Below, piece by piece: positions 16,710 through 28,331 of a stretch of DNA of 36,838 nucleotides. The DNA is from Burkholderiales bacterium (GTDB lineage Bacteria > Pseudomonadota > Gammaproteobacteria > Burkholderiales > JACMKV01): positions 1 through 36,838 of the forward strand of contig JACDAM010000293.1 of the NCBI GenBank assembly GCA_013695435.1, read 5' to 3'. The notes beneath the pieces are model-generated. The model saw only the letters and a program-made list of their open reading frames with translations. It was not told where the DNA came from and searched no databases. The position numbers and the translations under genes are program-made. Within the stretch, counting starts at the first letter, position 1. The number at the start of each line of letters is the position of its first letter.

Positions 16710-19283
16710 GTGAAGCCTGGTAAAACTCTGATCATCGCGGAAAAACCTTCGGTCGCGAACGATATCGCGCGCGCGCTCGGCGGTTTCAGCAAGCACGACG
16801 ACTATTTCGAAAGCGCCGACCATATTCTGTCATCGGCGGTCGGCCATCTGCTCGAGCTGTGCGTCCCGGAGGAATTCGAGGTCAAGCGCGGCAAGTGGAC
16901 GTTTACCCATCTGCCGATGATCCCCCCCCACTTCGGGCTGAGGCCGATCGAGAAAACCGAGTCCCGGCTGAAACTGCTTGCAAAGCTGGTTAAACGCAAG
17001 GATGTGGCCGACGTGATCAACGCCTGCGATGCCGGGCGCGAAGGCGAGCTGATATTTCATTATTTGATGCGCCACCTGAAAAGCCAGAAACCGGTGCGTC
17101 GGCTGTGGCTGCAATCGATGACGCCGGGCGCGATCCGGGACGGTTTCGAAGGTTTGCGCGCCGGCGAAACCATGGCGCCGCTGGCTGCCGCCGCAGTGTG
17201 CCGGTCCGAGGCTGATTGGCTCGTCGGTATCAATGGCACGCGCGCGATGACGGCGTTCAATTCCAAAGCCGGCGGCTTTCATTTGACGACCGTGGGCCGC
17301 GTGCAAACGCCGACGCTCGCCATCGTCGTCGAGCGCGAAGAGGCGATCAAACGCTTCGCTGCCCGGGATTATTGGGAGGTCCACGCGACTTTCGAGGCCG
17401 CTGCGGGCAGTTACAACGGGCGCTGGTTTGACGAGCGATTCGCGAAGACCACGGGCGAGGCCGAGCTTCGCGCTGAGCGGCTGTGGGATGGGGCGCGGGC
17501 GCGGGCGATCCGCGAGCGGTGCTTCGGCCAGCCGGGAATTGTCACGGAGGAAAGCAAGCCGTCAACCGAAAGTTGTCCGCTGCTGTATGACTTGACCAGC
17601 CTGCAGCGCGATGCCAATGGCCGCTTCGGATTTTCCGCGAGAACGACGCTGAGCCTGGCGCAGGCGCTTTATGAGCGGCACAAAGCGCTGACTTATCCGC
17701 GCACCGATTCGCGCGCGCTGCCGGAAGACTACGCGGCGACGGTCAAAGAGACCTTGAGCGTCCTGGCGGGGACAGTTTACAAACCACACGCCAGCCTGAT
17801 CCTGAAACAAGGATGGGTTCGGCCGAACCCGCGTATTTTCAATAACGCGAAGATTTCCGATCACTTTGCGATCATCCCAACTCCGCTGCCGCCGCGCAAT
17901 CTGAACGATGCCGAAGCCAAACTTTACGATCTGGTCACCAAGCGCTTTCTCGCTATCTTCCATCCTGCCGCCGAATTTCTGCTGACGACGCGTATTACCC
18001 GCGTCGCCGACGAGCCTTTCAAAACCGAGGGTAAGGTTATGGTCGATGCCGGTTGGCAGGCTGTCTACGGCAAGGAAGTCCAGTCCACGGAGGCGAGCCT
18101 GACCCCGGTCCGCGCGAACGAAACCGTCGCGACGCGCGAAGTCGAAGTCGTCGCGCACCGGACGAAGCCGCCGGCGCGCTACACGGAAGCGACTTTGCTG
18201 TCGGCGATGGAGGGGGCGGGCAAGCTGATCGAGGATGAAGATTTGCGCGAAGCGATGCTAGGCAAAGGCTTGGGAACGCCGGCGACGCGTGCGACCATCA
18301 TCGAAAATCTGATCCTCGAAAAGTACATGCTGCGCAACGGCCGCGAGCTGGAAGCGACCGCCAAGGCTTTCTCGCTGATCACGCTGCTGCGCGGTCTGGA
18401 CGTCCGCGAGTTGTGCTCGCCGGAATTAACCGGAAATTGGGAGTTCAAGCTGAAGCGCGTCGAACGCGGCGAAATCGGACGCGAGGTATTCATGGACGAC
18501 ATTATCGATATGACCGAGCGCATCGTTCGCCAGGCCAAGAACCACGACAGCGACACCGTTCCCGGTGACTTCGGCACACTGCAGGCGCGCTGCCCTAGGT
18601 GCGGCGGCGTGGTCAAGGAAACCTACAAAACCTTCCAGTGCGAAAACTGCGATTTCTCACTCTGGAAAATTCTTGCCAGACGGCAATTCGAAGTCGCCGA
18701 AATGGAGCAACTGATCCGTGAGCGGCAGGTGGGTCCGTTGGCCGGCTTCCGCAGTAAAATGGGCAGGCCTTTCACGGCGTCGGTCTTGCTGAGCCCGGAG
18801 CTCGAAATAAAGTTCGATTTCGCGCTCGAAGACAACGCCGCGACAGAAGCACCCGACTTCAGCGAGCAAAAGCCTTTGGGGAAATGCCCGAAATGCGGGG
18901 CGGGGGTTTACGAACTTTCGAGTAAATATGTATGCAAGAACGCGACCGGACCCGACAAATCGTGCGACTTCAGCACCGGACGGACGATCCTGCAGCGGCC
19001 GATCGAGCGCGAGCAAGTCGAGAAATTGCTGACGCTGGGCAAGACCGATCTGTTGACCAGGTTCGTATCGAAAAAAGGCCGTCCGTTTTCCGCGTTTCTG
19101 GTGGTCGGGGAGGGCGGCAAGATCTCGTTTGAATTCGCCCCTCGGGTTGGAAAAGGCGGAAACAAGGCCAAAGGCGGCAAAAAAGCGGCGGAATCCCTCA
19201 AAGCACCGTCGCACGATCACCCAGCACCCGTCATCGAGAAACCGCCGAAGCCGCGGCGGCGCACTGCTACGGGCCGAGGGTAG
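16710..19283 (+). CDS. topB: DNA topoisomerase III (type IA)
   Basis: Cuts and rejoins one DNA strand to relax negative supercoils or decatenate DNA. The 857-residue protein starts at GTG 16710. It has the Toprim domain (GKTLIIAEKPSVANDIARAL; acidic motif DAGREGE at 107-113), the GRVQTPTLAIVVERE segment, and the active-site Tyr329 in ALTYPRTDSR. Two C-terminal modules follow, each a four-Cys zinc ribbon plus a strand-rich repeat: CPRCGGVV...CENC with FRSKMGRPFTASV, and CPKCGAGV...C...SC with FVSKKGRPFSAFL. A basic tail (KAKGGKKAA, KPPKPRRR) ends it. It is about 200 residues longer than E. coli TopB because of these repeats. The N-terminal IAEKPS motif separates it from TopA. It is convergent with gyrB; the 94-bp gap shows no clear terminator. 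Confidence 0.94.
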   Translation: MKPGKTLIIAEKPSVANDIARALGGFSKHDDYFESADHILSSAVGHLLELCVPEEFEVKRGKWTFTHLPMIPPHFGLRPIEKTESRLKLLAKLVKRKDVADVINACDAGREGELIFHYLMRHLKSQKPVRRLWLQSMTPGAIRDGFEGLRAGETMAPLAAAAVCRSEADWLVGINGTRAMTAFNSKAGGFHLTTVGRVQTPTLAIVVEREEAIKRFAARDYWEVHATFEAAAGSYNGRWFDERFAKTTGEAELRAERLWDGARARAIRERCFGQPGIVTEESKPSTESCPLLYDLTSLQRDANGRFGFSARTTLSLAQALYERHKALTYPRTDSRALPEDYAATVKETLSVLAGTVYKPHASLILKQGWVRPNPRIFNNAKISDHFAIIPTPLPPRNLNDAEAKLYDLVTKRFLAIFHPAAEFLLTTRITRVADEPFKTEGKVMVDAGWQAVYGKEVQSTEASLTPVRANETVATREVEVVAHRTKPPARYTEATLLSAMEGAGKLIEDEDLREAMLGKGLGTPATRATIIENLILEKYMLRNGRELEATAKAFSLITLLRGLDVRELCSPELTGNWEFKLKRVERGEIGREVFMDDIIDMTERIVRQAKNHDSDTVPGDFGTLQARCPRCGGVVKETYKTFQCENCDFSLWKILARRQFEVAEMEQLIRERQVGPLAGFRSKMGRPFTASVLLSPELEIKFDFALEDNAATEAPDFSEQKPLGKCPKCGAGVYELSSKYVCKNATGPDKSCDFSTGRTILQRPIEREQVEKLLTLGKTDLLTRFVSKKGRPFSAFLVVGEGGKISFEFAPRVGKGGNKAKGGKKAAESLKAPSHDHPAPVIEKPPKPRRRTATGRG

Positions 19284-19377: not shown

Positions 19378-22919
<3,542 letters not shown>

Positions 22920-22932
22920 AAGATTTAAAGAC

Positions 22933-22947
22933 TAGTAATAGTAATAA
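22933..22947 (-). other. DnaA-trio array (5 triplets)
   Basis: The plus strand reads TAG TAA TAG TAA TAA. Read 3' to 5' from the box side this is AAT-AAT-GAT-AAT-GAT, each fitting the published 3'-[G/A]A[T/A]-5' DnaA-trio consensus. It begins 13 bp from the perfect DnaA box and leads into AT-rich DNA at the dnaN start. DnaA is expected to assemble on this single strand during unwinding. Confidence 0.6.
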
Positions 22948-22960
22948 GCATCGCCGAATC

Positions 22961-22969
22961 TGTGGATAA
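22961..22969 (-). other. Consensus DnaA box
   Basis: TGTGGATAA on the plus strand, i.e. TTATCCACA on the minus strand: an exact match to the high-affinity DnaA box. It points towards the DnaA-trio array, the orientation expected for initiator loading. Confidence 0.85.
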
Positions 22970-23082
22970 TACCTTAAAGCACTGAGTTTCTTGGCCTAAT
23001 CTGGCGCTACCCCTGTGCACGATGGGCAATTAGCCTGTAGAAGGTTTGTTCGTTCTATGGAAACCGAAAGCCGCTTCGTTCC

Positions 23083-23091
23083 TTATGCACA
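23083..23091 (+). other. DnaA box (TTATGCACA)
   Basis: TTATGCACA fits the TTATNCACA consensus. It lies 33 bp from the dnaA stop codon, on the strand opposite to the TTATCCACA box at 22961-22969. Confidence 0.65.
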
Positions 23092-23124
23092 CCTTTGTAC
23101 CGTAGATAGCCGAAGAGATATATT

Positions 23125-24456
23125 TCAACTCCGAAGCATCTGCAGCAAAACGGTATAGTCGCGGGTGATCTCGGTTTCGGATTCGCGCAGTTCTGCAATT
23201 TTGCGGCACGCGTGCATGACGGTCGTATGGTCGCGGCCCCCAAACGCTTCACCGATGTCGGGCAAACTCAACTGCGTCAATTCCTTGGCCAGCGCCATGG
23301 CAATCTGGCGCGGCCGAGCCACGACACGCGACCGCTTCTTGGAGTGCATTTCCGCGATCTTCAACTTGTAATAATCGGCGACGGTTTTCTGGATATTGTC
23401 GATTGACACTTGCCGCAACTGGACCGCCAGGAGGTCCTTTAACGCATCGCGGCAGAGCTCGGCGGAGAGCGGCCTTTCGTGGAATTTCGCGTAAGCCAGT
23501 ACTCGCTTCAAGGCGCCTTCAAGCTCGCGAACATTCGACTGGATATGCTTGGCGAGAAAAAAAGCCGAGGCGTGATCCAGGGCGACAGCTTCTGCTTCGG
23601 CTTTCTTTAACAAAATGGCAACGCGCATTTCAAGCTCGGGCGGATCGATAGACACGGTCAATCCCCAGCCGAAGCGTGAGATGAGCCTGTCTTCCATATT
23701 CGAAATCTCTTTCGGATAGGTATCGCAGGTGATAATAACCTGATGTTTCGCTTCTATAAGCGCATTGAAAGCGTAGAAAAATTCTTCCTGAGTCCGCTTT
23801 TTTTCGCTGAAAAACTGGATGTCATCGATCAGCAGCACATCGAGTGAATGATAGTAACGTTTGAAGTCGTCAAATGCCTTATTCTGGTAAGCACGGACGA
23901 CGTCACTGACGTACTGTTCGGCGTGGATGTAGCGAACCCTGGCCCCAGGTGCCAGCTGAACCACGCGGTTGCCAATGGCCTGGATCAAGTGCGTTTTGCC
24001 TAAACCGACCCCGCCGTAGACGAACAGCGGATTGTAGGAGGCCCCCGGTCGTTCCGCGACGTGCATGGCCACACCGCGCGCCATCTCGTTTGCCTTGCCG
24101 GAAACCAGGCTATCGAAAGAGAATGCCGGGTTCAGCCTGGTCTGCCCACTGTCCGCGCGGATCAGGGGCGGGGCGGGCAGGGGTTTGGACGGCGACGTTT
24201 TGACGCTTGGCGCAAGCTCTCGTTCCTGCAGCGCAAGACACAGCACGAGAGAGCTTGAAAAGTGCGCGCTCGCCATTTCTTCGAAGTCGTGCAGGAATCT
24301 ATCCTTGATCCACTCCAGCGCGTATTGATTCGGCACGAGAATGGTCAGGCAGTCCTCACCGGCTTTCAGACGTAGTGGCTTGATCCAGGTCTTGAACTGC
24401 TGGGCGCTCAATTCCTTTTCGAAACGATCCTGGCAGGCGCGCCAAAACCGATCCAT
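23125..24456 (-). CDS. dnaA: Chromosomal replication initiator DnaA
   Basis: Binds DnaA boxes and melts oriC. With start ATG 24456 it has 443 residues; an in-frame TTG at 24483 would add nine. Domain I is at the N-terminus ([25 protein letters not shown]), then a short linker. The AAA+ core follows: [21 protein letters not shown] (Walker A), [20 protein letters not shown] (Walker B), TCDTYPKEI and LISRFGWGL. The DNA-binding domain IV ends with the signature [22 protein letters not shown]. Neither start has a Shine-Dalgarno; ATG gives the family-typical beginning. It heads dnaA-dnaN-gyrB, and the divergent rpmH operon starts 164 bp away. Confidence 0.97.
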
Positions 24457-28309: not shown

Positions 28310-28331
28310 GGATGTTTCACGTGAAACATCC
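28310..28331. other. parS centromere site
   Basis: A perfect 22-bp palindrome, GGATGTTTCAC/GTGAAACATCC. Its 16-bp centre (28313-28328) is exactly the parS consensus TGTTTCACGTGAAACA recognised by chromosomal ParB. It lies three bases after the mnmE stop, about 2.5 kb from parA and 5.4 kb from the putative oriC. ParB should load here and spread over the origin region. Confidence 0.95.

Follow-up and report, generated by a model that had tools for sequence, protein, structure and literature searches.

Where does the chromosome of this Burkholderiales bacterium start to replicate, and which piece of DNA does its initiator open? The window, i.e. the whole analysed stretch of 36,838 nucleotides, comes from a draft genome of 2.97 Mb in 302 contigs. 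It carries the classical origin cluster, with gyrB-dnaN-dnaA on one strand and rpmH, yidC, mnmE, mnmG, rsmG, parA, parB and the atp genes on the opposite one. Family-model tests covered dnaA, dnaN and gyrB, with dnaA and dnaN scoring well over the cut-offs of their NCBIfam models; the other genes of the cluster were identified from their translations. The gap between dnaA and dnaN holds two DnaA boxes of at most one mismatch, and a perfect parS palindrome lies about 5.3 kb from the unwinding module described below, close to the 5.4 kb first estimated. Clustered boxes, origin genes and parS, the combination by which an oriC is recognized, are present together. Altogether, the dnaA-dnaN gap is very probably the chromosomal origin oriC, with positions 22933-22969 as its Basal Unwinding System (BUS). 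The original prediction had put this forward as an inference; it now has the support of conservation, of the skew in five of seven relatives sampled, of the sole parS and of the origin gene cluster.

Table 1 Features of the proposed origin and its surroundings in the window.
Feature	Position	Strand	Remarks
dnaA-dnaN intergenic region, proposed oriC	22920..23124	-	205 bp; ~200-bp gaps with clustered boxes conserved across Betaproteobacteria; skew change in five of seven relatives sampled
dnaA, initiator protein	23125..24456	-	TIGR00362, E 1.8e-166
dnaN, sliding clamp	21813..22919	-	TIGR00663, E 4.2e-98
Perfect DnaA box TTATCCACA, module anchor	22961..22969	-	0 mismatches; same-genus relative has GTATCCACA
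13-bp spacer GATTCGGCGATGC	22948..22960	-	Same length in same-genus relative; peak spacer length in class
Five DnaA-trios, TTA TTA CTA TTA CTA	22933..22947	-	From sequence; positional enrichment in relatives
AT-rich low-stability stretch, probable DNA-unwinding element	22902..22951	.	Second least stable 50-bp stretch of window
Oppositely oriented DnaA box TTATGCACA near dnaA end, candidate distal box	23083..23091	+	1 mismatch; like-placed boxes in many relatives
Weak DnaA-box-like site TCGTGCACA	23014..23022	-	3 mismatches; forward boxes in -110 bin of some relatives; weak by itself
Eroded DnaA box AGTGGCCAA	24537..24545	-	3 mismatches; 16 bp before dnaA -10 TAAAAT
parS site TGTTTCACGTGAAACA, perfect palindrome	28313..28328	.	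Sole copy in genome

Base for base as predicted, the module reads from dnaA towards dnaN, on the minus strand, as a perfect box, 13 bp of spacer and the block TTA TTA CTA TTA CTA, with AT-rich DNA beyond it (GTCTTTAAATCTT, then the ATG of dnaN). The complement of the block is 3'-AAT AAT GAT AAT GAT-5', and all five of its triplets fit the DnaA-trio rule 3'-[G/A]A[T/A]-5'; at the trios, DnaA would grip the + strand. Next to the box there is no good second tandem box, the best adjacent 9-mer having 5 mismatches.

A published survey of bacterial origins (PMC8287927) describes a BUS as a box with at most 2 mismatches, a spacer of 0-16 bp with a peak at 10-13, and at least 3 consecutive trios. The module surpasses this rule: its box has no mismatch to TTATCCACA, its spacer equals the 13 bp given there as the commonest, and its five trios are all strict, consecutive and on the correct strand. 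The initiator has the arginine finger and the single-strand-binding motif, with the equivalents of Asn187 and Arg202 substituted. As the same survey finds a second tandem box in 57% of predicted BUS and accepts single-box ones (PMC8287927), such a box does not define a BUS.

We then compared the gap with its own dinucleotide shuffles. The looser published rule (at most 2 mismatches, 0-16 bp, at least 3 NAN) was satisfied in 1,563 of 20,000. In a gap this rich in AT, a match to the loose rule is thus not convincing by itself, and strong evidence comes only from the strict form. A perfect box followed at 10-16 bp by at least five strict trios occurred in none of the 20,000 shuffles, nor did a box of at most one mismatch with at least four trios. 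Over the 2.97-Mb genome, a relaxed pattern (TATCCACA, 8-18 bp, three trios) matched at the module locus only, and the reversed control pattern had no match; the strict module can single out the origin even in a draft genome.

The original prediction had staked itself on close relatives keeping the box and the triplets. In the sole same-genus genome among those searched (L002/L031), whose dnaN is 87% identical, the module consists of GTATCCACA (8/9), a 13-bp spacer and TTA TTA CTA TTA CCA, i.e. four of the five trios; 34 of 37 module positions are identical, against 66% over the remaining gap. The arrangement also recurs before dnaN class-wide, in a comparison set of 98 different gaps between dnaA and dnaN, 150-260 bp long and mostly about 200 bp. 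The strict pattern was absent from the dnaA-dnaN gaps of 60 relatives and present in the window's genome only. A search for the perfect box understates conservation, and therefore we used position-based tests. On the sequences compared, the perfect box at the module is a feature of the window's genome, many relatives having a poorer one there.

In 42 of the 98 gaps, a strict run of at least 3 trios begins 19-42 bp ahead of dnaN, while shuffled gaps gave 1.9 on average and 4 at most; YTA makes up 139 of the 149 triplets in the 43 trio blocks listed. A run falls within the final 60 bp in 46 gaps. In these, agreement with the DnaA box is greatest at exactly 13 bp of spacer: a box of at least 8/9 stands at that distance in 6 of them, and at every other spacer in 2 at most. 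A box with at most one mismatch, 10-16 bp and at least 3 trios were found together in 11 gaps on the forward strand, with none on the reverse strand and none in shuffles. These counts are not independent, the sequences sharing ancestry, and the pattern is nonetheless present in several dissimilar gaps (L073/L067, L089/L072, L096, L084). Even with two mismatches allowed in the box, only 16 of the 98 relatives have box, 10-16 bp spacer and at least 3 strict trios, which indicates that the module is degenerate in many of them. The gaps contain 1.51 boxes of at most one mismatch per 200 bp, whereas dnaN itself has none in its first 200 bp. The recurring positions of the boxes in the gaps, counted from dnaN, are -200 to -170 for reverse boxes and -150 to -130, -110 and -60 to -50 for forward ones. 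From the conserved position and spacing of the module, one can predict directly at which site and by which route betaproteobacterial chromosomes open.

Can the initiator of this bacterium read such trios? We aligned the window's DnaA with that of Bacillus in the cryo-EM structure of the BUS (8btg). Equivalents of Arg264 (the arginine finger), Lys222, Glu228 and Glu183 are retained; Ile190 is replaced by Val, still hydrophobic, Asn187 by Ser and Arg202 by Lys, the last two at residues 184 and 199 of the window's protein. In Bacillus, Asn187 contacts the central adenine of a trio and Arg202 the guanine at its first position (PMC10721633). Both replacements are general in the class: in the 88 distinct DnaA sequences of Betaproteobacteria that we compared, Ser occupies position 187 in 77 and Asn in none, and Lys occupies position 202 in all. 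With these residues replaced and the trios conserved, the motif appears to be kept while its contacts differ. None of the trio-contacting residues is in fact universally conserved; their properties are generally maintained and their positions vary among homologues (PMC10721633). With Ser in place of the adenine-reading Asn, these proteins are a natural experiment on trio recognition by DnaA.

These two substitutions, together with upstream boxes in both orientations, also speak for an opening of the E. coli type, in which an upstream DnaA oligomer captures single-stranded DNA in trans, the trios being no more than a by-product of AT-rich composition. We consider this improbable: the register, orientation and box spacing of the trios are conserved beyond what composition gives, and the trio-contacting residues, as noted above, are not universally conserved (PMC10721633).

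The other gap flanking dnaA calls for attention as well. The original prediction saw two promoters and no DnaA box between rpmH and dnaA. The latter part stood, the rpmH-dnaA gap having no box with at most 2 mismatches; of the two promoters, a consensus scan of this gap returned one, and a box eroded to three mismatches came to light in addition (Table 1). One perfect TGTGGATAA is found upstream of dnaA in 52 of 66 relatives, and in 51 of these 52 it stands 16 bp before a -10-like hexamer, mostly TAAAAT or TAGAAT. In the window, TAAAAT is retained and the eroded box keeps the same distance to it. This placement would fit a box lying over the -35 of the dnaA promoter and serving autorepression, and dnaA autoregulation may be different in the window's genome.

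It is conceivable that replication starts from the rpmH-dnaA gap, or that this gap supplies an essential half of a two-part origin, given how widespread its perfect box is in relatives and that Bacillus and Epsilonproteobacteria have bipartite origins (PMC6669920, PMC5043019). This seems very unlikely: the relatives have a single box, placed relative to the -10 as autorepression predicts, and in the window's genome it is the one that has eroded. Finally, the origin could be in the dnaA-dnaN gap with the trio block conserved as part of a dnaN promoter or leader, as its near-fixed distance of about 20-45 bp from the dnaN start, where leader signals also sit, would allow, but this is the least credible reading, for no sigma-70-like site was found at the block, a 3-bp YTA repeat resembles neither a -10 element nor a ribosome-binding site, and a good DnaA box, where present, is preferentially 13 bp away from it.

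Returning to the BUS in the dnaA-dnaN gap, its sequence elements, with their order, orientation, conservation and origin context, can be read directly from the DNA, and from them we infer DnaA binding, filament growth, strand opening and the start of replication at the module. Domain IV of DnaA would bind the TTATCCACA box and seed a DnaA filament. The filament would span the 13-bp spacer and grip the + strand at five successive DnaA-trios, and the AT-rich DNA adjoining dnaN would be opened for helicase loading. The opposite box near the dnaA end (23083-23091) probably raises the local DnaA concentration by looping, as the distal DnaA box does in Bacillus (PMC6669920). A bolder idea, which in its entirety we regard as rather doubtful, is that DnaA of Betaproteobacteria recognizes the same trios via a different pocket (Ser/Lys), and that the pairing of a perfect origin box with an eroded box at the dnaA promoter shifts the control of initiation in this genus from dnaA autorepression to the origin.

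GC skew, suggested with the original prediction as a check, gave a mixed answer. With 302 contigs, a chromosome-wide skew of the window's genome cannot be drawn. Within the window the change is weak (-0.0065 on the left, +0.010 on the right), and the cumulative skew is lowest at 16,934. For seven relatives the skew was taken from 20-kb samples on either side of dnaA-dnaN, and its sign flips there in five of them: G016, G026, G060, G061 and G062, the last three with dnaN identities of 58%, 60% and 54%, respectively. In G056 the change is weak. In the complete relative G005 (contig C1, L111-L130), the sign changes at about 1.38-1.8 Mb with dnaN at 1.28 Mb, i.e. 0.1-0.5 Mb from dnaA-dnaN; in this genome dnaA seems to lie away from the skew minimum, and we rejected G005 as skew support for the locus. 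In Cupriavidus metallidurans, the skew transition is about 90 kb from dnaA (PMC2864759). Skew is unable to separate the two gaps flanking dnaA; the DnaA boxes do so.

The arrangement and orientation are those of the Bacillus subtilis unwinding module, as originally claimed. The incC BUS of B. subtilis (DnaA-box#6/#7 and DnaA-trios; PMC6669920, PMC10721633) is likewise located in the dnaA-dnaN gap with further boxes upstream, and has a box, a spacer and 3'-[G/A]A[T/A]-5' repeats that run towards dnaN as they do in the window. It differs in having six trios instead of five, a tandem pair of boxes where the window has no recognizable second one, and a DnaA with Asn187/Arg202 instead of Ser/Lys. 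The epsilonproteobacterial oriC1-dnaA-oriC2 (PMC5043019) also places its unwinding region, with a DnaA-trio, between dnaA and dnaN; contrary to this bipartite origin, the window has just one eroded box on the upstream side of dnaA. No paper dissecting a betaproteobacterial origin by DnaA-trios was found in the literature searched.

Richardson 2016 is reportedly the first DnaA-trio paper, and Ori-Finder 2022 marks trios routinely. The origin survey predicts BUS in 1,755 of 2,070 bacterial origins (85%), across the bacterial domain, and its BUS tree covers all five proteobacterial classes (PMC8287927). With BUS published throughout bacteria, trios in a betaproteobacterium are no cause for surprise. 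Since such systems are already predicted this widely and trios marked routinely, the window's origin is a good, well-supported example of an already known kind of origin.

In six relatives (L005, L040, L043, L048, L075 and L105) the dnaA-dnaN gap is just 13-23 bp long, e.g. L040:3985-4000, next to a dnaA of normal length (438-443 codons). Upstream of dnaA, these six have a single autoregulatory box and no trio run of at least 4. As a gap of this size beside a normal-length dnaA has no room for it, their origin has probably moved elsewhere. Judged from these sequences, the arrangement seen in the window shows itself as typical of the class but not universal in it.
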